A model generated the notes under the pieces. The model saw only the letters and a list, made by a program, of their open reading frames with translations, ran no database searches and was not told where the DNA came from. A program made the translations under genes and the position numbers. Positions 13,248 through 23,687 of a stretch of DNA of 52,952 bases are shown one piece after another; position 1 is the first letter of the stretch; each line of letters starts with the position of its first letter. The DNA is from Thiotrichales bacterium (GTDB taxonomy: Bacteria; Pseudomonadota; Gammaproteobacteria; Thiomicrospirales; Thiomicrospiraceae). Where the stretch lies: positions 1 to 52,952 of the forward strand of contig JAFGXP010000009.1 of assembly GCA_016936535.1 (NCBI GenBank), in the 5' to 3' direction.

Positions 13248-13282
13248 AAAGCCCGCTTGCTTCTCCCGCTGCGGGCTTTTTT
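13248..13282 (+). terminator. Intrinsic terminator of gltBD
   Basis: AAAGCCCGC pairs with GCGGGCTTT across a 14-base loop and runs into TTTTTTG. It lies 22 bp after the gltD stop codon. Confidence 0.85.
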
Positions 13283-13370
13283 GTTTGGCGCATACGGCCC
13301 TAGGAAAATTTCACCTTTTCTTCACTTTGGGTTTGTTTTAATAAGAACCTCAACTGAAAGGAGAAAATCT

Positions 13371-13733
13371 ATGTTCCGCTATTCCACTGCTCTTATCGCC
13401 TCTACCGCAATGCTTTTCATTACTGGCCTCTCGCCAGTACACGCTCAATACCAAGGGCCAGGTGCTTATGTTGAGACCAACCTAGAACGAATTTTGAACG
13501 CACCACAAGACGATCAACAGGTTCAACTGGAAGGGTTTTTGGTTAATAAAATTCGTGGAGATAAATATACTTTCTCAGATGGCAAACAGACCATTCGGAT
13601 AGAAATCGACAGCGATGCGTTTCCCAGCGAACCTTTCAATGAAAAAACGCGTATTCAAATTCACGGTGAAGTCGAAAAAGACTTTATGGAAACGCCAGAA
13701 ATCGATGTTGACCGTATCCAGATTCTTCGTTAA
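13371..13733 (+). CDS. Periplasmic OB-fold stress protein, YgiW/YdeI (BOF) family
   Basis: A 120-residue exported protein. The signal peptide is about residues 1-24 with cleavage after VHA. The mature part fits the bacterial OB-fold (BOF) family: GAYV near the start, then LEGFLVNKIRGDKYTFSDGKQTIRIEIDSD and a terminal INVDRIQ-like strand (IDVDRIQILR). The upstream frame extends to 13257, but that region is the gltD terminator; AAAGGAG before the ATG at 13371 decides the start. In E. coli ygiW precedes qseBC, and here too an OmpR-type regulator and kinase follow. Role in stress tolerance is known only for relatives. Confidence 0.9.
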   Translation: MFRYSTALIASTAMLFITGLSPVHAQYQGPGAYVETNLERILNAPQDDQQVQLEGFLVNKIRGDKYTFSDGKQTIRIEIDSDAFPSEPFNEKTRIQIHGEVEKDFMETPEIDVDRIQILR

Positions 13734-13754
13734 AACTCAACGTATCTCTCTGCT

Positions 13755-14429
13755 ATGCATATTTTATTAGTTGAAGACGACACAAAGATTATGGCGACTT
13801 TGGTGGATTATCTAGAGCTGGATGGATTCACTTTTGATTGCGCTTATCATGGTCAGGCGGCGATTGAACTCTGCCGCCAGCATCACTTTGATGTCATCGT
13901 CATGGACATCATGATGCCCAGACTTGACGGCATTCAAGCCGCTAAGGTATTACGTGAAACGCTTAAACTTGATACCCCTATCCTATTTTTGACCGCCAAG
14001 GATTCGATTGAAGATAAAACCTTGGCGTTTCAAGCGGGCGGTGATGATTATTTGGTCAAACCCTTCTCTCTTGATGAGCTGCGCCTTCGACTTTTGGCAC
14101 TTAACAAAAGACGACGCTCCCCTGAGCAAAGTGCGCTACAGGTTGGCCCTCTTTGTTTCAACCTCCAAACCGAACAGCTGTTTTTTCATCAAAAATCCAT
14201 CAAACTCGCCCCCAAGCAATTAGCAATTGTTCGTTTTCTGCTCGAACAGCACCCGCAACTGATCAGTCGCGCCCGTCTGGAACAGCATCTCTGGGGGGAA
14301 GACGTTCCCAATAGCGACGCTTTACGCAGTCACCTTTACAGCATTCGCCAAGCCCTGAGTGACGAACAAGGGCCTTTTTTACAAACCCTGCCTACCAAAG
14401 GTTACCGCTTACGAGACCCCAATGCATAA
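13755..14429 (+). CDS. OmpR-family response regulator (QseB-like position)
   Basis: A 224-residue two-domain regulator. The receiver domain has the acidic pair ED at 7-8, the phospho-acceptor Asp51 in VMDIMMPRLDG, and the conserved lysine in DYLVKPF. The winged-helix DNA-binding domain follows from about residue 125, ending with the wing LQTLPTKGYRL. No strong Shine-Dalgarno precedes the ATG, so translation may be coupled to the upstream gene 21 bp away. The kinase start overlaps its stop by 8 bp. The position after ygiW recalls E. coli qseB, but the signal and targets here are unknown. Confidence 0.93.
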   Translation: MHILLVEDDTKIMATLVDYLELDGFTFDCAYHGQAAIELCRQHHFDVIVMDIMMPRLDGIQAAKVLRETLKLDTPILFLTAKDSIEDKTLAFQAGGDDYLVKPFSLDELRLRLLALNKRRRSPEQSALQVGPLCFNLQTEQLFFHQKSIKLAPKQLAIVRFLLEQHPQLISRARLEQHLWGEDVPNSDALRSHLYSIRQALSDEQGPFLQTLPTKGYRLRDPNA

Positions 14430-15708
14430 CCCAACTACATCCACAGCCCCGACCAAATTGTTTAATCGTCTATTGGTCATGGGCGGCAGTTTGGTGGCGA
14501 TTTTTACCGCGTTGTTTATTGTCGTGGTGGTGGTCGCGGAAGATCAGATGGAGCTGCTGAGTTTGCACCATTGGCTCGATGCCGAAGCCAGTCGTTATGA
14601 GCGCGATTATCAGCAAAAAGGGATCACCGATGCTTACCCCAATCCCTATGAATTTGATTTTTATCACAGCCAAAAATCGGTACCTGCATGGCTGAGTCAT
14701 TACCAAACACCGGGTTTTTATGAACATCATCTAGGGCCAGAGGACAAACATTTTTTAGTCCGCCGTGCACCCGATGGACAAGGTTTTTTCTATGTTGTCT
14801 TTAAGGACAATGCCGACGATTATCTCGATCACTATGAAAGTAAACTGCAATTATTTGTCATTGGTTTAGGCAGTTTGATTTTACTGATTGCTGCACTTTA
14901 TGCTTATTTTACCTTGCGTCAAATTGCCCACCCTCTGCAGCAAGTCTTACAAAAAATCCGCCAGATGCCGCCCGATTTTGCCGATTTTTCAGTGAGCAAT
15001 CAATACCAAGAACTGCAACAAATTGAACAAGCGCTACTCCATAGCAAACGCCAAATTGCCGACTTTTTTCGACGCGAACAAGAATTCAGTCGCTTCTCTG
15101 CGCATGAAATCCGGACGCCCTTAATGGTCTTACAAGGCTCAGCCGAACTGCTCGCACGCTTGCCCAATCCCGACCCTCGCGCGACAAAAGCGCAACAGCG
15201 CATTACCCAAAGTTGCGATGAAATTCGCTTACTGACTGATACGTTCTTGCTGTTAGGCAAATCTCGGTTGGAAGCCGAGCGCCTCGAACTCTGTCACCTC
15301 AATCACCTGATTGAAAAACAGTTGGCACAATTACCTTCCCAACACTCAGATGGACCGGTCTTTGAGTTTTTACCGAGCAGTGACGTTTGGTTAGAGAGCC
15401 CGCCGAGTTTTCTTATCATAATCATCCGTAACCTCCTCAAAAATGCCGCCAGTTACAGCGAAGGGACTGTTCGCATTCAATTGGATAACCAACAGTTAAG
15501 AATGAGCAATCCTTCTGGCAGTCAAGCTCACAGCATACTCAAACAAAACCAGGGTTATGGTTATGGACTGATTATTGTCGAACGTATCTGCAACCTGATG
15601 AATTGGCACTTTCATGCTCAAGAACGTGCTGAACACTTTGAGGTGGTCTGGGGCTTTTCGCCAGAAAAACAGCCGACAGATAGCCAACATATAGATAACC
15701 AACATTGA
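14422..15708 (+). CDS. Sensor histidine kinase
   Basis: Partner of the preceding response regulator; the ATG overlaps its stop codon (ATGCATAA). The 428-residue protein has a transmembrane helix near residues 17-39, a periplasmic sensor region of about 110 residues, and a second helix (LFVIGLGSLILLIAALYAYF). A linker and the H-box FSAHEIRTPL follow, then the ATPase domain with N-box IIRNLLKNA and G-box GYGYGLIIVERI. The linker is short for a HAMP domain. No DxGxG G1 box is obvious (the region reads RMSNPSGS), so the ATP lid looks reduced. The periplasmic part is not a family I recognise. Confidence 0.9.
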   Translation: MHNPTTSTAPTKLFNRLLVMGGSLVAIFTALFIVVVVVAEDQMELLSLHHWLDAEASRYERDYQQKGITDAYPNPYEFDFYHSQKSVPAWLSHYQTPGFYEHHLGPEDKHFLVRRAPDGQGFFYVVFKDNADDYLDHYESKLQLFVIGLGSLILLIAALYAYFTLRQIAHPLQQVLQKIRQMPPDFADFSVSNQYQELQQIEQALLHSKRQIADFFRREQEFSRFSAHEIRTPLMVLQGSAELLARLPNPDPRATKAQQRITQSCDEIRLLTDTFLLLGKSRLEAERLELCHLNHLIEKQLAQLPSQHSDGPVFEFLPSSDVWLESPPSFLIIIIRNLLKNAASYSEGTVRIQLDNQQLRMSNPSGSQAHSILKQNQGYGYGLIIVERICNLMNWHFHAQERAEHFEVVWGFSPEKQPTDSQHIDNQH

Positions 15709-15740
15709 GTCTAAGAAAAAACCTTTAACCTTAAATTAAA

Positions 15741-15763
15741 CCAGAAGAACCACTTTCTTCTGG
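15741..15763. terminator. Hairpin between the kinase gene and the convergent peptide gene
   Basis: CCAGAAGA pairs with TCTTCTGG over a 7-base loop. On the reverse strand it is followed by TTTAATTTAA, which would let it end the outer-membrane protein/peptide transcript. On the forward strand the downstream U content is weaker. Confidence 0.55.
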
Positions 15764-15789
15764 CTTGTTCGGTTTTAATCTTCCCTAGC

Positions 15790-15918
15790 TCAACGGATTT
15801 GTTGCTGCATCCACTCAAAATAGGTCTCTATCGTAAAGTCCGCTGGCATCGGACAGGCAAAAAGAGTGTTGGACCACAACAAAATGCCCCCAACCATCAT
15901 GAATTGAAACGATTTCAT
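15790..15918 (-). CDS. Secreted 42-residue peptide with CPMPAD core (copy 1)
   Basis: Short ORF of 42 codons starting with ATG after GGGAG. The first 20 residues look like a signal peptide (MKSF, then MMVGGILLWSNTLFA), and the mature part would start at Cys22 and read CPMPAD, then IETYFEW, ending QQQIR. A second ORF of exactly the same length at 20604-20732 shares ACPMPAD, Ile30, Thr32-Tyr33, Glu35 and the terminal QIR, at the same positions. LFAC could be a lipobox, or signal peptidase I could cut after the alanine. It lies 46 bp downstream of the outer-membrane barrel gene on the same strand and is probably co-transcribed. No function can be assigned. Confidence 0.72.
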   Translation of the reverse strand: MKSFQFMMVGGILLWSNTLFACPMPADFTIETYFEWMQQQIR

Positions 15919-15964
15919 CTTGCTAAGCTCCCAAGTAAGTGGCCTATTTCTTTTTTATGCGCGC

Positions 15965-16618
15965 TTAAAAAGCGTAGTAGGCGCCCAAAAAAAGCTGATG
16001 TGCACGTGCAAAATCCGAGTCACGGTACTGATATTCACCTCGTAAAGCGATCGAGTCCATAAGCTGATAATCGGCACCTGCTCCTACTATTAGCCCGTTT
16101 GTCTTATCGGAAGAACTTTGTCCGCTCTGGTTGCGGTCTGCACCGTTTTCAATATCGGTTTGGCTCGATTGGCTTTGCTTGAGTGTTTCAAAGGTCAAAC
16201 CTGCCTTTACAAAAAAACGCAAATCAGACGAGTACGCATGGTAGTAAACGGGTGTCAACGCCCATACTTGATGGTCAATTTGCGCATTCCACTCATGCTC
16301 ACCCGACTCGGTGCCATTAATAAAGGGTTGCTCAATCCCGCTTTCCTGTTCCGTTTCAGAAAACTGTAATTCCAATCCCCAACGAGGGGAAAACTGATAT
16401 CCCATAAACAGAGCCGCCACGGTTTCACTTGGCGAGCGATCCAAACTGAGGTCGCGAGAACCTTCTGTTTGATGAGTAACCGAATATTCGGTCACAACCG
16501 AGTTATCCCATTTTTGCTGAGTATATAAACCACCAACGCCCAGATAAAAGTCGGCTACGGCCTGCCCAGATAAGGCGCAAAAAGCCCCCATCACAACACT
16601 TCTTACTTGCCAATTCAT
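15965..16618 (-). CDS. Small outer-membrane beta-barrel protein
   Basis: A 217-residue exported protein with signal peptide 1-22 (cleavage after AVA). It has alternating-hydrophobicity strands such as WALTPVYYHAYSS and ALRGEYQYRDSDF and ends in YYAF; a C-terminal aromatic residue is the signal for BAM-mediated insertion. The size and the pattern GVGGLYTQQKWDNS fit the OmpA-like/OmpW-like 8-strand barrel group, but I cannot name the family. AAAGGAG precedes the start. It converges on the two-component system and is followed by the CPMPAD peptide gene, so it may be regulated with it. Confidence 0.75.
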   Translation of the reverse strand: MNWQVRSVVMGAFCALSGQAVADFYLGVGGLYTQQKWDNSVVTEYSVTHQTEGSRDLSLDRSPSETVAALFMGYQFSPRWGLELQFSETEQESGIEQPFINGTESGEHEWNAQIDHQVWALTPVYYHAYSSDLRFFVKAGLTFETLKQSQSSQTDIENGADRNQSGQSSSDKTNGLIVGAGADYQLMDSIALRGEYQYRDSDFARAHQLFLGAYYAF

Positions 16619-16846
16619 GACATGTCTCCTTTTTGTAAATTCCTCCGTACTCTAAACAATCGCTCGTGAACATTTTGTGAAATCCAAAATACGCTTTAAT
16701 ACTTGCTTAATACTCTTGAGGCTTTATGAACAAAAGATTGAACTCTACAAATATAAGAAAATATTAATATTAATTACTTGCAAAAAAGCAACAATATACA
16801 TAAATTAGCATATGCCAATAAATTTAATTAATATAAGGTAATCATT

Positions 16847-18103
16847 ATGCAAATCATCGCACAACAGAAATGGCACCCTCGGCATTGGTTAATGCCACTG
16901 GGTATGATGGGCACCAGCATTATGCTGGTTTTCATTCTCAATGTATTTATTCCACACAAAGGGTATTTTCTTCCCTCTATCACTCAATACCAGACCCACA
17001 TCGCCTCATTGGACGGGGCTTCGCAACTTGGCTTGATGCTGGCTTGGTATGGTTTCTGGCTCCTGTTTATCCTCGGCAGTTTGTTGATTCCGTATTTCAT
17101 TTACAAATCGGTACAATTTTTAAAGGCGGGTGCTCATCAACTCTCTGATCAGGATCCTATGGAAACCGCAGGCTGGTTTGGAATTCCCCTGTCATTAGCA
17201 ATGTATGGCAATGTATCAGCCTTCGCCACCATCATGTTTTTTGAACTCAATGGCAAACAAGACGATGTCTTGTGGCCTTTTTGGCTGGCCTACAACACCG
17301 CAATTGCCTTGATGGCTTTTGCACAATTTATTTGGTATCACCAAAACAAAAAAGCACTCGCCAAGTCAAAACACCCTGCCGCCAATAACCATTCCATGGT
17401 TGTGCCCTTTGCACTCGGTTTTATGGGTTTAAACCTTGCTGGCCCTGGCGCACTTGGCAGTCACAATGAAGTGGTTACACTCTCGCTGATCCTTTCGATG
17501 AGCTTTATCGGCTTATCTGTGGCGGTGTTTTTTAGTAAATTTTCGACTTTCAAACGGGATGCTGCCGCACTTTGGCTCAAACCTTCCGACAACGAGAGCG
17601 CACAGGTAAATAAAAACTGGGGACAAATTCTCAATTTTGGTACCGCCATCACCACCTTCAATGTTTGGATGATCACGTCGGTGCGAAACTATCTCAATTA
17701 TTCACACAACTTTGCCGGGTTTGAACTGGCAACCAAAAATATGATTACATGGGGCGGCGGCATCACTGTCACCTTGGCATTCTTGGTAATAATTACCCTA
17801 GCGCGTAGAGGCTTTTTTGCCCACCTTTTCCAAGCACAACGGCCGCTGATTTTTTCCTTAGGTCTGGTTTGTATGCTGGTCTCCAGCTTTGTGTTAACCG
17901 CCTTGTTTGGTATGACCGCTTTAAAACTGGGAATTATTGAAGCCTATAGTCTTGAACTTTATGCCTTACTCACCTTAGAAGCTGTGTTGTTGAGCCTCAA
18001 TTTATTCGTGGTCTCGGCTTTGGTTTATCGCATGGTTTTGCGTGGCAACATTCAGTGCTGGCAAACGCATGAGATTCGCCAGCTCACTCAAAGCCAGGTG
18101 TAA
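16847..18103 (+). CDS. Polytopic inner-membrane protein, TsoY-like
   Basis: A 418-residue protein with about ten transmembrane helices, for example MLVFILNVFI, YGFWLLFILGSLLIPYFI, AYNTAIALMAFAQFIW, VTLSLILSMSFIGLSVAVFF and LYALLTLEAVLLSLNLFVVSALVY. Conserved-looking polar spots are NLAGPGALGSHNE and the N-terminal HPRHWLMPLGMMG. The overall look fits the TsoY family of sulfur-oxidising gammaproteobacteria, some members of which are selenoproteins; I recall this family rather than prove it. The transport or enzymatic role is unknown. It is preceded by a 228-bp AT-rich region shared with the divergent outer-membrane gene and has an AAGG ribosome site. Confidence 0.6.
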   Translation: MQIIAQQKWHPRHWLMPLGMMGTSIMLVFILNVFIPHKGYFLPSITQYQTHIASLDGASQLGLMLAWYGFWLLFILGSLLIPYFIYKSVQFLKAGAHQLSDQDPMETAGWFGIPLSLAMYGNVSAFATIMFFELNGKQDDVLWPFWLAYNTAIALMAFAQFIWYHQNKKALAKSKHPAANNHSMVVPFALGFMGLNLAGPGALGSHNEVVTLSLILSMSFIGLSVAVFFSKFSTFKRDAAALWLKPSDNESAQVNKNWGQILNFGTAITTFNVWMITSVRNYLNYSHNFAGFELATKNMITWGGGITVTLAFLVIITLARRGFFAHLFQAQRPLIFSLGLVCMLVSSFVLTALFGMTALKLGIIEAYSLELYALLTLEAVLLSLNLFVVSALVYRMVLRGNIQCWQTHEIRQLTQSQV

Positions 18104-18136
18104 ACAGCGCTTTTTGTAGCGACTCGTCCGGAGAAA

Positions 18137-18166
18137 ACAGGGTTTCCGTTTCACGTGAAACCCTGT
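18137..18166. repeat. parS-like palindrome inside a 10-bp hairpin
   Basis: The 14-mer GTTTCACGTGAAAC at 18148-18161 is the exact inner core of the bacterial parS site bound by ParB. It sits inside a longer inverted repeat, ACAGGGTTTC (18137-18146) with GAAACCCTGT (18157-18166), which could fold as a hairpin after the preceding membrane-protein gene. No U tract follows, so a simple terminator is less likely. parA and parB are not in this window. Confidence 0.6.
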
Positions 18167-18276
18167 TCTTGCGCCATTTGCTCATCAAAAAAGTAATCAT
18201 CATTACACTCTCTAGACTTCCCATCCCTCGCCTTGCCTGTTAACCTCTAAACGTTTGTTTACTGCAAGAGGTCACA

Positions 18277-18513
18277 ATGTTTCCAGCCAAATATCAACCG
18301 GTCGTTTTTGCCTTTTTCATGGCGCTATTTATGTCTTTTCTGATGTCTGGGGTAATCAGTCTGATTAATCTCGGGCTAACCGAACATTTCCTCGCAATCT
18401 GGTGGCAGGCTTGGTGGAGCGCTTTTATTGTCGCCTTTCCAGCCGTTCTGGTAGTTGCGCCACTGGTTCGACGCTTAACAGCCAAACTCTTGCGTCCAAC
18501 CGGCACCGTTTGA
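18277..18513 (+). CDS. DUF2798 family small membrane protein
   Basis: A 78-residue protein with two transmembrane helices: residues about 9-31 (VVFAFFMALFMSFLMSGVISLIN) and 44-64 (QAWWSAFIVAFPAVLVVAPLV). The pattern with PxxVxxLVRRLT at the end is that of DUF2798 proteins, whose function is unknown. The start follows AGAGGT. It stands alone between the parS-like element and the chemoreceptor gene. Confidence 0.88.
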   Translation: MFPAKYQPVVFAFFMALFMSFLMSGVISLINLGLTEHFLAIWWQAWWSAFIVAFPAVLVVAPLVRRLTAKLLRPTGTV

Positions 18514-18558
18514 AATTACCAGAGCGCAAGTTGGCATAAGATTCCCTTGCAGAAAGAT

Positions 18559-18585
18559 TTGATTTTTCTGGCAACTGGCCGACAA
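18559..18585 (+). promoter_or_regulatory. Sigma-28-like promoter of the chemoreceptor gene
   Basis: GCCGACAA at 18578-18585 matches seven of eight bases of the FliA -10 consensus GCCGATAA. The 8-mer TTGATTTT lies 11 bp upstream at 18559-18566 and matches the -35 TAAAGTTT at five positions. FliA promoters commonly drive chemoreceptor genes. Confidence 0.4.
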
Positions 18586-18619
18586 TAAAAAACACTGTCC
18601 CTTTTTCGAGAGTAACCTT

Positions 18620-20311
18620 ATGTTTGTTTCTCAAAGCCGCTTTCTTGCTCTACAAAACCTTGCCCTTCAACAACAACAAGCTTTAGACGCATTACACCGT
18701 TCCATGGGCATTATTGAGTTTGACTTGCAAGGCACCATTTTGCACGCCAACCCTAACTTTCTAGCGGTAATCGGCTATGACCTTATCGAAATTCAAGGCC
18801 AGCACCATCGCCTGTTTGTCCCAGCAGAAGAACAGGCCACCCCTGAATACCAGCGATTTTGGCAGCGCTTGCAACAAGGCGATTTTTTCTCGGGGCAATT
18901 CCAACGGCTCGCCAAAGGTGGCAAACGCATTTGGATTGAGGCCACCTACAATCCCATTTTTGATGATAGCGGCCGTCCTTATAAGGTGGTGAAATTTGCC
19001 AGCGACATTACCCAACGGGTAGAAACACAAATCGAAAGCCAGGCCAAGCTGCGGGCAATTGATCAAACCTTTGCGACCATTGAATTCGATCCCAAAGGAA
19101 ATATCCTCACGGCTAATTCCAATTTTTGCAACGTAATGGGCTACAGTGCCGCTGAACTCAAAGGCCAGCATCACCGCTTGTTTGTCGCTGAAGACGAGCG
19201 TAATCGGGCAGAATATCGCGATTTTTGGCAGCAGCTTGCCCAAGGGAAAGAACAAACTGGTCAATTTAAACGACTGGGAAAACAAGGACAGGCCGTGTGG
19301 ATTCAAGCCTCCTACATTCCAATTGCCGCCCCAGGGCAACTGCCCCACAAAGTAATTAAGGTTGCCACCGATATCAGCGCACAAAAAGAGCAGGAATTAA
19401 ACCTGAATCGGATGGTAAGTGAAGCCGGTAACGTGTTACAAGGCATGGCACAAGGTGATTTAACACAAAGTGTGCAAGGCGAATACCTTGGCGGATTAGA
19501 ACGGTTAAAAGCGGATCTTAATGCAGGGGTCGCCAACTTGGCCAATGCACTTGCGGAAATCAACAGTGCCGTCGGCTCGGTTGCCAATTCGGCAGCGGAA
19601 GTCTCGAGTGCCTCAAGCAGCTTATCGCAACGCACTCAAGAAACCGCCCACTCGGTAGAACAAACCCGAAGCCTAATGCAAGAAACCGCTCAACAGGTCC
19701 ATCAAACCCGTAATCAAGTGCAACAGGCCCGAACCGCAACCCAACAGCAGCAAGTACTGATTGATTCTGAAAATCAACTCATGAGCCGTTCTTTAGTGTC
19801 GATGGAAGAGATTAAAAACTCCTCGGAACAGATCACCCACATTGTCAGCCTGATTGACGGCATTGCCTTTCAAACCAATCTTCTCGCATTGAATGCCGCA
19901 GTAGAAGCCGCCCGCGCCGGTGAGCATGGGCGTGGTTTTGCGGTAGTTGCTGGGGAAGTACGCAACCTAGCACAAAAATCGGCCGATGCGGCTAAAGACA
20001 TCAAGAAACTGATCGAGCGCGCTGTAGAGCAATCACAAACTGGGGTAGAGGTCGTCGGTAAACTGGCTGAGAACTTAGAAAAAATTCGGGAAAAATCGAC
20101 CGAGGTTAGCGAAATTGTTGATCTGGTTGGTACCTTGGCCGACCACCAAGCAGACAGTGTGACTCGCATTGGTCGTGAAATTGCCAATATTGATAGCTCA
20201 ACTCAAGAAAATGCAGCCTTTGTTGAACAGACCTCTGCCACGGCAGAAAGTCTTTCCGGACAAGCATCGGACGTATTACAAGTACTAAGACAATTCAAAA
20301 TCGGTCGCTGA
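18620..20311 (+). CDS. Cytoplasmic methyl-accepting chemotaxis protein with two PAS domains
   Basis: Chemoreceptor of 563 residues without transmembrane segments. Two tandem PAS domains (about 25-130 and 145-255) each contain the block FDxxGxILxANxNFxxVxGY and GQHHRLFV, so they look like an internal duplication. A short HAMP-like region (GMAQGDLTQSVQGEYLGGLERL) leads to the signalling domain. The hairpin tip is SLIDGIAFQTNLLALNAAVEAARAGEHGRGFAVVAGEVRNLAQ-type sequence, which contacts CheA and CheW. PAS sensors of this kind usually follow redox state or oxygen through flavin or heme, but the cofactor cannot be told here. No C-terminal CheR pentapeptide is present. Confidence 0.93.
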   Translation: MFVSQSRFLALQNLALQQQQALDALHRSMGIIEFDLQGTILHANPNFLAVIGYDLIEIQGQHHRLFVPAEEQATPEYQRFWQRLQQGDFFSGQFQRLAKGGKRIWIEATYNPIFDDSGRPYKVVKFASDITQRVETQIESQAKLRAIDQTFATIEFDPKGNILTANSNFCNVMGYSAAELKGQHHRLFVAEDERNRAEYRDFWQQLAQGKEQTGQFKRLGKQGQAVWIQASYIPIAAPGQLPHKVIKVATDISAQKEQELNLNRMVSEAGNVLQGMAQGDLTQSVQGEYLGGLERLKADLNAGVANLANALAEINSAVGSVANSAAEVSSASSSLSQRTQETAHSVEQTRSLMQETAQQVHQTRNQVQQARTATQQQQVLIDSENQLMSRSLVSMEEIKNSSEQITHIVSLIDGIAFQTNLLALNAAVEAARAGEHGRGFAVVAGEVRNLAQKSADAAKDIKKLIERAVEQSQTGVEVVGKLAENLEKIREKSTEVSEIVDLVGTLADHQADSVTRIGREIANIDSSTQENAAFVEQTSATAESLSGQASDVLQVLRQFKIGR

Positions 20312-20338
20312 GGGAAATCACGCGGGACCATGCCCCAT

Positions 20339-20362
20339 AAAAAAGGCTGCCAAAAGGCAGCC
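20339..20362 (-). terminator. Intrinsic terminator of the DUF6502-DUF5666-peptide operon
   Basis: On the reverse strand GGCTGCC-TTTT-GGCAGCC is followed by TTTTTT. It lies just past the end of the chemoreceptor gene on the opposite strand. It is the first terminator reached by a leftward transcript through the peptide genes. A second small dyad (AAAGAGTC/GACTCTTT, about 20388-20404) lies upstream of it. Confidence 0.85.
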
Positions 20363-20434
20363 AAGCGAGGATGCTTATCGGCTCGCAAAGAGTCGGACTC
20401 TTTACCTACCAATAAGAGAGTGCAGGGTGAGCAA

Positions 20435-20554
20435 TTAGCGGGCTTCGGGTTGGATGCTCTGGATTTGCGTACCCATGACATCCACTCCAAAACACACCAA
20501 GCATTGATATAAAAACTTAAGCGCCTTGAGATAAACCGCCGCGTCAATAGACAC
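20435..20554 (-). CDS. Possible 39-residue small protein with CxxC
   Basis: An open frame of 39 codons between copy 2 of the CPMPAD peptide and the operon terminator. With a GTG start at 20554 it encodes a partly hydrophobic protein with a Cys-Leu-Val-Cys motif (residues 18-21) and the C-terminus SIQPEAR. The ribosome site before GTG is weak; an internal ATG (20476) has GGAG eight bases upstream but leaves only 13 residues. Codon use looks like neighbouring genes. It could be a real small protein, a leader peptide, or chance. Confidence 0.35.
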   Translation of the reverse strand: MSIDAAVYLKALKFLYQCLVCFGVDVMGTQIQSIQPEAR

Positions 20555-20603
20555 AATTGATTTACCAACTCTGTGCGCCTTAAAAACGACTTAAGTTCGT
20601 TGT

Positions 20604-20732
20604 TTAGCGAATTTGTGCAATCCACTGTTCGGTATAGGTATCTATCTCAAGATCCGCAGGCATTGGACAAGCCAGCGCATTCGCAGATCCAATCAATAAA
20701 CTTCCAATAAAAACATGCTTCAATAGGTTCAT
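20604..20732 (-). CDS. Secreted 42-residue peptide with CPMPAD core (copy 2)
   Basis: ORF of 42 codons with an excellent AGGAGG five bases before ATG. Residues 1-21 form a signal peptide (hydrophobic VFIGSLLIGSANALA), with ALA before Cys22, so signal peptidase I cleavage or lipid attachment is possible. The mature part begins CPMPAD and ends in WIAQIR. It matches copy 1 (15790-15918) in length and at ACPMPAD, Ile30, Thr32-Tyr33, Glu35 and the terminal QIR, whereas the signal peptides differ. It is the third gene of an operon with DUF6502 and DUF5666, 91 bp after the DUF5666 stop codon. Function unknown. Confidence 0.78.
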   Translation of the reverse strand: MNLLKHVFIGSLLIGSANALACPMPADLEIDTYTEQWIAQIR

Positions 20733-20823
20733 GCTGGCCTCCTGATTGGCCGCCACCCTCAGGGGCGGCAATCTTTTTTTAAGGGCACCGCCGGTTTAAA
20801 ACGGTTCGGCTCCCTTAAAGGGA

Positions 20824-22341
20824 CTAATCGTCGTTGTCATCATCGTTGTCATCCGTATCTTCGACCTCAATGCTCAACACATTTCCACTGGCATCGTGCT
20901 CAATTTCAAGGAGCAATTTCGGCTGATTCGCTGTGTTGTATGCCAACAGTTCTTGAAGCGTGCGTGGCCCAAAGCCCTCGTCATTTTCAAATCGAGTGGA
21001 GCTGCTGGTAGTAAAGTTTAAACCTGAAACACGAATCACCTGGTCTGTTGCCCCTTCATAAATACCTTTAAGCTCAGAGCCATTCCCCTGATTGTTGTCG
21101 TCACGATCATTATCATCGTCGTCGTTACGATCAATTTCTAAGGCAAAAATGCCATCGGCGGTTTGATAGCCTTCTACTTCAACTTGCTCGCCCACATTCA
21201 AGCGGCGCTGATTCACACGGTCATCATCATCGTCAAAAGACGTTTCAAACCCAGTAAAAATCGTCACATTATTGCCCGCAACACTCATCACAAAAGAGCC
21301 ATTACCATTGGCATCCAGTGCAACTGATTGCACAGCTCCCTTTAAATCGATTTCACTGCTACGCAATTCAATCTCGGTGGCAATCAAGCGATTATTGGTG
21401 CGGTCATAAAAACCCTCTACCTCAACCCAGACATTGTCGCCAAGCGTAATAAATCCGGACGTCAAGTTAACACCGGACGCATCCACATTTACCCCACGCA
21501 AGTTAAAGGTTTTGTTAGCGCTGTTGAAATTGGTGATATAGCCTTCGATATCAAAATCATCATTATCGACTCGGCCAACAAATAGCGCCTTGGCATCATT
21601 TTCGTCGTCAATTTCTTCGGCGATAAAATTGCCATTCTCGATTCGACCTTCTACCTCAACCGTCTGGCCGTTTTGCAGGCTTCCCAAATCGTCATCGATA
21701 TCGGTCTGCGCACTGTATCGAATGGTTTGGCCATTCAAACTAAAGGTCTGGAGCGAGGAGTTTAAATTGCTAATCACACCTTTGAATTTAAAATCATTCA
21801 GGTCATCATCGCGGTCGTCTTTATCATCAACATAGGTGGCCACCAATTGATTGTTGGCATCGTAATAACCGCTTATTTCAACAATTTGGTTATCTGCCAA
21901 GGTGACAAAACTCAAATCATCGTCGTACTTGGTTCGGGTACGGCTCACCACCACTTGGGTGCCATAAATCGTAAAACGTTTGATATCCGGATCATTTGCA
22001 TCAACGGTTAAACCCGTGATTGGGCCTTGTAAATCATCATCAAATGTAATGCGCGATGCCTTACCGGTTTTGCGGTCAGCGTTAATTTCGCCTTCTACCT
22101 GCACAACCATTCCCACCCGCAAATCTTGTTCACTGGCCACGCGGCCATCAATTTCAAATTGCGTGCTGTTGGTATCATATTTGACACCACCCACCAAAAC
22201 ACTTCCGAATCCACTGATGGTTCCAGTCGACGTAAAGCCCGTGCCGCTGATGCCAGCAATATCACCGCCTCCACCGCCGCAGCCGCTTAGTCCAAGAACT
22301 AAAGAAGTGCTTAATAACGTTAATTTAAATGTCTGTTTCAT
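20824..22341 (-). CDS. DUF5666-repeat lipoprotein
   Basis: A 505-residue exported lipoprotein: signal peptide with lipobox LSGC, then a glycine run. The body is built of at least five related segments with the core VxVEGxxxxxxxxAxxI, for example VEVEGRIENGNFIAEEI and VEVEGYQTADGIFALEI, as expected for repeated DUF5666 domains. It is strikingly rich in Asp and Asn, with runs such as DDDDDR and a C-terminal tail DTDDNDDDNDD; cation binding is possible but not shown. It starts within the last codons of the DUF6502 gene (17-bp overlap), so translation is coupled. AAGGTGAG precedes the ATG. Confidence 0.88.
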   Translation of the reverse strand: MKQTFKLTLLSTSLVLGLSGCGGGGGDIAGISGTGFTSTGTISGFGSVLVGGVKYDTNSTQFEIDGRVASEQDLRVGMVVQVEGEINADRKTGKASRITFDDDLQGPITGLTVDANDPDIKRFTIYGTQVVVSRTRTKYDDDLSFVTLADNQIVEISGYYDANNQLVATYVDDKDDRDDDLNDFKFKGVISNLNSSLQTFSLNGQTIRYSAQTDIDDDLGSLQNGQTVEVEGRIENGNFIAEEIDDENDAKALFVGRVDNDDFDIEGYITNFNSANKTFNLRGVNVDASGVNLTSGFITLGDNVWVEVEGFYDRTNNRLIATEIELRSSEIDLKGAVQSVALDANGNGSFVMSVAGNNVTIFTGFETSFDDDDDRVNQRRLNVGEQVEVEGYQTADGIFALEIDRNDDDDNDRDDNNQGNGSELKGIYEGATDQVIRVSGLNFTTSSSTRFENDEGFGPRTLQELLAYNTANQPKLLLEIEHDASGNVLSIEVEDTDDNDDDNDD

Positions 22342-23173
22342 GGTCGCTCACCTTGGTTTGTAAGGCCTGAGATTCAGGCAGAATGTGTTGATAAAAATAA
22401 ATTCCTAAGCTGACATAACAGCTCTGTTGCGGATCTTGAACTTCATGTTCGATCAGCCAACCATCCAGTGATTCCAATAACGCTTGCGCCTGACTGGCAC
22501 TAATCTGTTTAAAAGCCTCAAGCTGTGCCGCATCTAAATGCTTGGTCGAAACCTTGCGTTGAAAACGTTTGGCAGGCACTTGATCACACAAAATATTGTG
22601 CTCAATAGTACGCAATAGCTCTGAACCATCCTCACCTAAAATCGCCACCATTTCGCTCTGGTCGCGACTGGGTAAATAGGCTACTTTTTGTAAAACCACC
22701 TGCTCACCTTCTACGGCTACGCAATTGGCTTCAATCAGTAAATCCAGCATCGCCTTCACCGTCATATCCCCACTGTAGCTCTTAACTAATTGGGCAAAGC
22801 TCGGCTCCCCTCCATTCAAACTCAGCGGTTGCGGTTTGCCTTTCGCATCCGCAAACGGTGAATGATTGTGCCAAGCACTCAATACACGGGTGGCACGGTT
22901 AAATTTTTGTAAACTTTCTAAGGCTTCTTCCGCGGGTTCTTCCAAAAGGCGTTTCACCTCTTTGCGTGCTAAACCGGTGCGTGCCGCAATTCGGCTGATG
23001 GTGGTTTTTCCTTCCTCTTGTTGGCTTAACGCGTGCGCCTCCTCAACAAAGACCTTGCGTACCATGTTTTCCATGTAAGCACTGGCCACCCCATTACGAA
23101 TCAAAATTCTCACCAAGGGACGGAGCAGTTTTTGCACACTCAAATTCAAAAGCTCTAAGGTTTCGGTTTTCAT
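22325..23173 (-). CDS. DUF6502 family protein
   Basis: A 282-residue soluble protein without signal peptide. The N-terminal third resembles a winged-helix or HTH unit: RPLVRILIRNGVASAYMENMVRKVFVEEA, then TTISRIAARTGLARKEVKRLLEE. It is therefore a candidate DNA-binding protein; the family has no established function. Its overlap with DUF5666 and its strong promoter with a dyad over the -10 suggest autoregulation of the operon, which is an inference. Confidence 0.82.
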   Translation of the reverse strand: MKTETLELLNLSVQKLLRPLVRILIRNGVASAYMENMVRKVFVEEAHALSQQEEGKTTISRIAARTGLARKEVKRLLEEPAEEALESLQKFNRATRVLSAWHNHSPFADAKGKPQPLSLNGGEPSFAQLVKSYSGDMTVKAMLDLLIEANCVAVEGEQVVLQKVAYLPSRDQSEMVAILGEDGSELLRTIEHNILCDQVPAKRFQRKVSTKHLDAAQLEAFKQISASQAQALLESLDGWLIEHEVQDPQQSCYVSLGIYFYQHILPESQALQTKVSDHETDI

Positions 23174-23195
23174 TGGCGTTTTCTCTTCTTGTTGA

Positions 23196-23228
23196 TTGGG
23201 ATTATATTCCCAAAAATAGCCAAGTCAA
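23196..23228 (-). promoter_or_regulatory. Strong sigma-70 promoter with overlapping dyad, DUF6502 operon
   Basis: Reverse-strand TTGACT (23223-23228) and a perfect TATAAT (23201-23206) are 16 bp apart. The inverted repeat TTGGGA-N6-TCCCAA (23196-23213) covers the -10 box. The 12-mer TATTTTTGGGAA occurs here and again upstream of the -35, making a likely pair of operator half-sites. Confidence 0.75.
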
Positions 23229-23687
23229 CAGATTTGGTATTTTTTTCCCAAAAATATCTCCATTCCGTCAAATTTCATCAAAAAACCTAAAAATGACGAA
23301 AAAAGGCTCAAAACTATTTTTTTGTAATGGGGTATACCGGCGAGGAGATACACCTCAAAGCAGACAAAAAGCACACATTCACGATTCAAAGCACCAAACA
23401 CACGAACAATGTCGTCTGTTTAGCGCCGTCAAACCAACCCAGGTCGCAGGTGTTAATGAGATTAAGGCGGATAAAATAAGAGGAAAGCCGATTCGCAGAA
23501 TCAATTTGTGGAAGCTTCGAAGCCTTAATGGGCCTCGTAGTTCAATCAATAAACCATTGAAGTGAAGATGTCCGCGCTTGGCCTAACAGTGCGCTAAGGA
23601 AATCTGGAACAAGTCCTTACAAAACACGCGGAACAGCGGGTAATGAGAGGTTTGAGTTTCAGCAGTCAAGCGACATGAAAACTCAAA
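23229..23687. other. Gene-free stretch between DUF6502 and the patatin gene
   Basis: About 460 bp with no gene I can support. A 130-codon forward frame that starts inside the DUF6502 promoter has no ribosome site and no recognisable domain. Base composition is uneven: T/A-rich to 23330, then mixed, with a short palindrome AAGCTTCGAAGC near 23512 and an imperfect GGGGTATA/TACACCTC pairing near 23332. It could be remains of a lost gene. Confidence 0.4.

Follow-up and report, generated by a model that had tools for sequence, protein, structure and literature searches.

Gene neighbourhoods of the two peptides

Two reverse-strand open reading frames of 42 codons plus a stop codon, encoding peptide 1 (15790..15918) and peptide 2 (20604..20732), are found in the window, i.e., the whole 52,952-nucleotide stretch of DNA that was analysed. 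Both lie where the original prediction had placed them, with the ribosome sites that it named recognized by eye (GGGAG, 9 nt 5' of the peptide 1 ATG, and AGGAGG, 5 nt 5' of the peptide 2 ATG), and each is located 3' of a gene for an exported protein as had been proposed, namely an outer-membrane beta-barrel for peptide 1 and a DUF5666 protein for peptide 2.

The barrel gene (15965..16618, reverse strand) matches OMP_b-brl (PF13505, 8.7e-16) and OmpA_membrane (PF01389, 1.4e-9), and scores 91.4 bits against the AcfA family model NF033908, under the cut-off of 100. A TsoY-family membrane protein (16847..18103, forward strand; NF047644, 6.6e-62) is encoded divergently from this barrel-peptide 1 unit, and a hairpin 3' of peptide 1 (15738..15766, reverse strand), which is absent from a consensus terminator scan, is a possible terminator. 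Convergent with peptide 1, and ending 80 bp away from it, is a forward-strand operon encoding an exported protein of the BOF / NirD-YgiW-YdeI family (13371..13733; PF04076 1.6e-17 and NF033674 2.1e-28, both scored on a longer ORF), an OmpR-type response regulator (13755..14429, from family searches) and a sensor histidine kinase (14359..15708, probable ATG at 14422). The sensor region of this kinase is conserved with Thiomicrorhabdus marina, and a structural model of it (mean pLDDT 74.9, from two input sequences) found no counterpart in the PDB with an E of 0.001 or lower.

Peptide 2, 5 kb from the kinase, follows overlapping reverse-strand genes for a DUF6502 protein (22325..23173), which has a sigma-70-like promoter match at 23228-23201 (11 of 12), and for the DUF5666 protein (20824..22341, from a family search). 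The leader between DUF5666 and peptide 2 (20733..20823, reverse strand) is predicted to form two stable hairpins, and a third hairpin carries the ribosome site in its loop; the fold of 20714-20823 has a z of -2.47, and 5 of 200 shuffles were equally stable. No Rfam family reached its gathering score across the window.

Paralogy and constraint on the core

Peptides 1 and 2 align without gaps and are identical at 18 of 42 positions (43%). These comprise all the identities claimed before (A21-D27, I30, T32, Y33, E35 and Q40-I41-R42) and, beyond them, M1, G10, L13 and S16. In an all-against-all comparison of 572 window ORFs of 25-80 amino acids, this pair ranked top with 37.5 bits, followed by a runner-up at 24.0 bits, and in 20 first-order Markov re-samplings the respective top pairs reached 22.3-27.8 bits. 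The likeness is therefore not a product of chance and, judged by these scores, the two peptides are true paralogues.

The N-terminus is signal-peptide-like, as judged by eye and from a predicted helix at residues 3-19; the same model (mean pLDDT 69.9) places the core in a loop, followed by a helix at 30-41. The mature part of the window peptides would be 21 residues, with Cys-Pro-Met-Pro and then the short predicted helix. Together with the third peptide described below, the mature parts are acidic (charges -2, -3 and -6) and carry a single Cys each, the invariant Cys22, which is preceded by Ala in all three.

Codon counts indicate that the ACPMPAD core is under constraint: between the two peptides, residues 21-27 show 4.0 synonymous changes at 4.7 sites and 0 non-synonymous changes at 16.3 sites, compared with a pS of 0.88 and a pN of 0.48 for residues 1-20. 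It had been proposed that selection acts on the mature part while the signal part has diverged. Core constraint and signal divergence are borne out by the counts, but much of the mature part has diverged too, in its C-terminal half (residues 21-42 as a whole: pS 0.64, pN 0.28). The core is also incompletely fixed when compared with the T. marina homologue, which has A26S and D27E (pN 0.20).

Distribution of the peptides

A profile search recovered one additional homologue, in T. marina, among 59 other genomes of the family; with the window's own genome, the search covered 60 of the 62 genomes on the family list. The matches returned from samples of the class (369 genomes searched) and the phylum (398 genomes searched) were all judged spurious by eye, and strict patterns searched against genome contigs recovered the T. 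marina locus alone. Outside the window's genome the family is thus met in one homologue, and wide conservation is unsupported. The statement in the original prediction that no described family with this core is known agrees with our searches, in which neither window peptide matched NCBIfam (at 0.001) and none of the three peptides matched Pfam (E up to 1). Likewise, no match was obtained for the peptides in a PDB profile search or for peptide 2 in plasmids (tblastn, E up to 1), and the best E against PHROGs was 0.13.

Several candidate members were rejected. Three (L006-L008) are weak profile matches that we consider spurious by eye, as is L005, which sits in the long frame of another gene; others lie within a hydrolase-like frame (L009), close to the beginning of a protein of 419 aa (L011) or inside a 180-aa frame (L135). 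One 29-aa ORF (L010) reads SACPMPSS after a hydrophobic stretch, with an immediate stop, and is antisense to a 284-aa gene. The idea that a peptide accompanies every DUF6502-DUF5666 pair was also discarded, as a CPMP ORF occurred in the T. marina neighbourhood only (20 neighbourhoods in 18 genomes); DUF5666 itself is present in 38 of the 62 family genomes. The peptides, three sequences in two genomes, appear to be genuine genes that form a small family, seen to date in Thiomicrorhabdus alone.

Linkage to a two-component module

In T. marina, a compact operon encodes, in this order, a DUF5666 protein, the peptide, a BOF/YgiW protein, a response regulator and a histidine kinase. The overlap between the peptide and DUF5666 genes is 11 nt, or 8 nt with the second ATG as start, and 20 bp separate the peptide gene from the BOF gene, which is followed by the regulator at 0 bp and then by the kinase. 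An exported PF04076 protein adjoining an OmpR-type regulator and a kinase is found in both the window and T. marina, with identities of 31% for BOF, 41% for the regulator and 39% for the kinase.

Of the 4 family genomes that have this kinase (kinase search at E 1e-40), 2 contain the peptide; among the kinase-less family genomes that were searched with the peptide, it occurs in 0 of 56. However, 8 of 10 kinase loci (the second T. marina copy and those in G023, G024, G203, G824, G759, G660 and G636) have no adjoining peptide, and therefore the module works without it. A uniform scan of these eight loci for ORFs of 30-100 aa with a hydrophobic start and C[PAS]xP flagged a single ORF, in locus L062, which reads CAKP and is antisense within a 702-aa ORF. 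The genome-wide profile searches described above covered genomes other than G824. Further, the kinase of the T. marina peptide operon is the least similar to the window kinase among nine others (39% vs. 41-51%), so that peptide and kinase have not simply been inherited together. Overall, the peptides appear to be a rare accessory, peculiar to this lineage, of a DUF5666/BOF two-component module.

A tandem site at the kinase loci

The sequence TTCAC-N6-TTCAC adjoins all 10 kinase loci, exactly in eight and with one mismatch in two, and its TTCAC reading is directed at BOF or DUF5666 in 8 of the 8 loci with such a neighbour. One exact window copy (TTCACCTTTTCTTCAC, 13310..13325, forward strand) begins 61 bp 5' of the ATG at 13371 taken as the BOF start, inside a mechanical TTG-start ORF (13257-13733). 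The other (TTCACAAAATGTTCAC, 16666..16681, reverse strand) has its first base 63 bp before the barrel ATG. The peptide 1 unit and, with one mismatch in the preceding site, the T. marina peptide operon may belong to the regulon; the peptide 2 unit has no such site. Neither the BOF-regulator-kinase operon nor the site that it shares with the barrel-peptide 1 unit figured in the original prediction.

A script flagged the motif in the promoters of four kinase loci (G203, G023, G024 and the second T. marina copy), after which it was spotted by eye in the window and the T. marina operon, while the sites in G824, G759 and G660 played no part in defining it. A matrix ranking of the window sites is circular because the matrix included both. 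Kinase neighbourhoods totalling 186,960 bases hold 12 exact sites within regions that sum to 2,350 bp and were chosen by the analyst as intergenic. Exact sites in the window genome number 5, with 3 in coding sequence and the remaining 2 before BOF and before the barrel-peptide 1 unit; additional exact intergenic sites occur in T. marina (two, near an amidohydrolase-like gene and a 480-aa gene) and in G023 (two). In 4 of the 5 genomes counted, the motif is no commoner genome-wide than a reversed control: at up to one mismatch the window genome has 119 sites vs. 139, and exact counts are 7 vs. 9 (G012), 16 vs. 3 (G023), 4 vs. 9 (G024) and 6 vs. 4 (G203). The evidence from this site is its position, not its number.

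Possible roles of the peptides

Taken together, we hypothesize, with a probability of roughly 40%, that the peptides act in an MgrB- or DbfQ-like feedback as modulators of an envelope-stress module of the two-component type, made up of the DUF5666 protein, the exported BOF/YgiW protein, the OmpR-type regulator and the histidine kinase. Counting against this reading are the small number of sequences, the eight kinase loci that have no peptide, the low similarity of the T. marina operon kinase, the genome-wide frequency of the site and its absence from the peptide 2 unit. The paralogy, the core constraint, the operon linkage in T. marina and the presence of one site at both the module and the unit of barrel and peptide 1 are established at the sequence level. 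In such a scheme, the hydrophobic N-terminus would carry the peptide to the periplasm, TTCAC-N6-TTCAC would be the putative binding site of the regulator, and the acidic mature part might tune the kinase, as MgrB does PhoQ or DbfQ does DbfS, by binding either the BOF protein or the sensor domain of the kinase.

Alternatively, the peptide might be an effector of the envelope-stress response, acting with the barrel and BOF at the periplasm or outer membrane, for example by neutralising cationic peptides or by binding metal via Cys-Pro-Met-Pro. The acidic mature parts and the shared unit of peptide 1 with a site-bearing OmpA-like barrel would suit this role, as would the binding of antimicrobial peptides and OmpA by a V. 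cholerae BOF protein (PMC6370654). However, the T. marina peptide is within a sensor operon, and that species has no homologue of the window barrel at E 1e-5, so we regard an effector role as somewhat unlikely.

The invariant Cys22 after Ala raises another possibility, which we consider unlikely, that signal peptidase II cuts before this Cys, and that the resulting 21-residue peptide is lipidated and serves in membrane stress or as a structural element. Entericidins and colicin lysis proteins are small lipoproteins with a short precursor and a Cys after a hydrophobic segment, and the peptides are alike in both features. However, they have no family match and an apparently weak lipobox: by eye against the usual pattern, NALAC, TLFAC and SASAC have A, L and A at -3, with a poor Asn at -4 in peptide 2, and signal peptidase I fits equally well.

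A rather improbable idea is that the peptide is a self-made acidic plug, a ligand of the BOF protein or the kinase sensor, that cationic intruders would displace, such that envelope attack is read as peptide release; the two differently controlled copies, one with DUF5666 and no site and one behind the site, might set and reset the threshold. Small size, an export-type N-terminus and a conserved mature core would also fit a released extracellular signal or bacteriocin-like peptide, which is highly improbable, as an unsystematic look at the identified neighbours revealed no exporter, peptidase or immunity gene. Finally, chance ORFs, for which one could cite their shortness and occurrence in only two genomes, are scarcely credible given a pair score above the Markov re-samplings, exclusively synonymous core changes between the paralogues and a homologue packed into an operon of another species.

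Comparison with known systems

By analogy, the role that we favour is that of a periplasmic modulator, acting on the kinase or on the BOF protein, MgrB/DbfQ-like and unrelated in sequence. Kinase-tuning small proteins are known from few systems, with examples in PMC10576120 and PMC12714742. Members of the candidate family are short enough for synthesis of the whole peptide; two copies occur in the vicinity of a single kinase, and a defined promoter site ties the family to the BOF/DUF5666 module, which is also met elsewhere in the class, in other families. The peptides would thus allow a direct test for endogenous peptide partners of BOF proteins or such kinases. DUF5666 would gain a first signalling context; a full-text literature search on DUF5666 returned four papers, with no title on DUF5666 or two-component systems among them.

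In the YgiW/VisP and SipA (VCA0732) systems, as here, a BOF gene occurs with a regulator and a kinase, and SipA, which is induced through VC1638/39, binds antimicrobial peptides and OmpA (PMC6370654, PMC5636140); the window similarly has an OmpA-like barrel behind the module's site. However, no comparable peptide or DUF5666 partner was seen in the available excerpts of these two reports. V. cholerae DbfQRS shares with our loci a small exported protein (export being predicted here) encoded beside a regulator and a kinase. DbfQ, which binds the sensor domain of DbfS, is a 135-aa protein with a PepSY domain (PMC12714742), whereas the peptides have no domain match.

MgrB, a 47-aa PhoQ inhibitor, is one of the small proteins that tune PhoQ, along with SafA and UgtS, and it represses this kinase and mediates antimicrobial-peptide sensing (PMC10576120). 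It retains its transmembrane segment and needs C28 and C39 (PMC8404706), whereas cleavage is possible in our peptides, which have one Cys in the mature part rather than two periplasmic ones and share no sequence homology with it, as reflected in the lack of a Pfam match. On the other hand, the peptides resemble MgrB in size and in the predicted arrangement of a hydrophobic N-terminus and a short periplasmic part; their genes, in the case of peptide 1 and T. marina, may also belong to the regulon of their own system.

Coding Status of the Peptide Pair

The original prediction of two reverse-strand ORFs of 42 codons apiece, at 15790..15918 (peptide 1) and 20604..20732 (peptide 2), with ribosome sites, was borne out. 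The two sequences align without gaps, with 18 of 42 residues identical (E 1e-12, two-sequence BLASTP), and are the top-scoring pair by a wide margin among the 572 small ORFs in the window; their score was never attained in 20 re-sampled windows. Selection had been claimed for the mature part as a whole. This holds for the ACPMPAD core, which shows approximately four synonymous and no non-synonymous changes between the paralogues, but the remainder of the mature part is less constrained. Based on the pair score and the core substitution pattern, peptides 1 and 2 therefore appear, at the sequence level, to behave like constrained protein-coding genes.

Distribution of the Peptide Family

A profile built from the pair was applied to the window's own genome and to 59 more from its family and 35 from its class (95 in all). 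It found one further true homologue, in Thiomicrorhabdus marina, with a core differing at two residues from that of the window peptides; no other match was accepted. Strict patterns run against a collection of 84,980 species matched 91 stretches, of which only the T. marina locus was confirmed. Four further weak matches, in samples of 369 class and 398 phylum genomes, were all judged spurious. A 419-aa protein (L011:799-2058) carries SACKMPADL after a signal-like segment, probably a chance resemblance to the core. The family is either narrow or diverges too fast for detection.

In line with the original proposal, no described family with this core was found: searches of Pfam, NCBIfam, PHROGs, and PDB sequences gave no match to the peptides that could be accepted. 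Full-text searches with partial literature coverage returned one paper for CPMPAD, which was unrelated, and no title on a Thiomicrorhabdus two-component system with a peptide. Taken together, the peptides are small export-type proteins tied to a two-component system and lie outside every family tested.

Gene Neighborhoods and the Kinase Module

Each peptide was expected to be downstream of an exported-protein gene, and this is the case: peptide 1 follows an OmpA-like outer membrane barrel gene (15965..16618, reverse strand), and peptide 2 follows a DUF6502-DUF5666 pair. The main rival to the role favored below is that the peptide is an effector acting together with the barrel. Two of the three peptide copies lie directly 3' of DUF5666. 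In T. marina, DUF5666 is followed by the peptide, BOF, response regulator, and kinase genes in turn; DUF5666 and peptide overlap by 11 nt, and the next two gaps measure 20 and 0 bp. The window BOF, regulator, and kinase genes (13371-15708; 31, 41, and 39% identical to those of T. marina, respectively) are convergent with peptide 1, and neither window peptide is more than 5 kb away from the kinase. A PAS-PAS-MCP chemoreceptor gene (18620-20311) lies between the two peptide units.

Kinases of the window type are rare, being found, with the window's own genome included, in 4 of 62 family genomes (E 1e-40), at least 2 of 369 class genomes (E 1e-50), and at least 4 of 398 phylum genomes (E 1e-60), the latter two counts being lower bounds because at most four candidates were scored among the genomes listed; in the family of genome G203 there were 2 in 48 (E 1e-60). 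Ten kinase loci were examined (window, both T. marina copies, G023, G024, G203, G824, G759, G660, and G636). DUF5666 is in the operon or is the adjacent divergent gene at six (T. marina first copy, G023, G203, G759, G660, and G636), and BOF is present at five (window, T. marina first copy, G023, G203, and G824) and was not seen by tblastn in the 14-16 kb neighborhoods of the other five. At the eight loci where no peptide is known, no small ORF combines CP-x-P with a signal-like N-terminus. The kinase encoded in the T. marina peptide operon is the least similar to that of the window, whereas nearer kinases (G024, 50%; second T. marina copy, 51%) have no peptide, which counts against a simple story for peptide and kinase. 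The peptide may often have been lost, or may have moved.

The Tandem Site

The promoters of the kinase loci were seen to carry an 11-bp tandem, TTCAC-N6-TTCAC. It is exact at eight of ten and has one mismatch at two (T. marina first copy and G636). The ten neighborhoods (186,960 bases) hold 12 exact sites, all within regions scanned as intergenic, which total 2,350 bp. The site is oriented towards BOF or DUF5666 at all eight loci having such a neighbor; at the remaining two loci (G024 and the T. marina second copy) it faces a divergent gene and points away from the regulator gene. The divergent genes so faced are large (L068:5283-7577 and L069:7989-10253), and the one in G024 has matches to hybrid kinases, TorS and ArcB among them. 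In intergenic regions of other families (L140, L141, L142, and L143), DUF5666 or BOF is divergent from the kinase with the tandem site, a recurring module; among the literature titles listed, none concerned a DUF5666/BOF-kinase module with this site.

The window genome (2.12 Mb) has five exact sites. Three of them are coding, including one that spans the overlap between two genes. The other two, at 13310..13325 (forward strand) and 16666..16681 (reverse strand), are 61 bp before BOF and 63 bp before the barrel-peptide 1 unit, and are oriented alike with respect to their genes. A TsoY-family membrane protein gene (NF047644, 16847-18103) is divergent from this unit across its site and possibly shares it; T. 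marina has an exact site 151 bp before a TsoY-family gene, and other sites near unrelated genes. Of the five genomes counted, G023 had more sites genome-wide than the control, and the other four were at the level of the control. We infer that the regulator binds the tandem site.

Peptide 2 differs from peptide 1 in its upstream signals, as no tandem site precedes its unit. The sigma-70-like match before DUF6502 was the best of its scan, although such matches were equally frequent in shuffles; by eye, a palindrome, TTGGGA-N6-TCCCAA (within 23174-23240, reverse strand), overlaps its -10 and is possibly an operator. The leader before peptide 2 (20733-20823, reverse strand) is predicted to form two stable hairpins, plus another that contains the ribosome site, a modeled fold that might allow translational control or mRNA processing.

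Proposed Role of the Peptides

Structure prediction, at low to middling confidence, gave two helices, the second one short, with a loop across the core between them. The mature parts are acidic. Because of analogy with the Vibrio cholerae BOF system and MgrB, we favor a peptide that would act in the periplasm as a modulator of the kinase or the BOF protein. The V. cholerae two-component pair is VC1638/39, which we take to be DbfRS. In V. cholerae, polymyxin B induces a BOF protein via VC1638/39, and this protein binds both OmpA and antimicrobial peptides (PMC5636140, PMC6370654). MgrB, of 47 residues, represses a kinase and mediates antimicrobial-peptide sensing (PMC10576120, PMC8404706).
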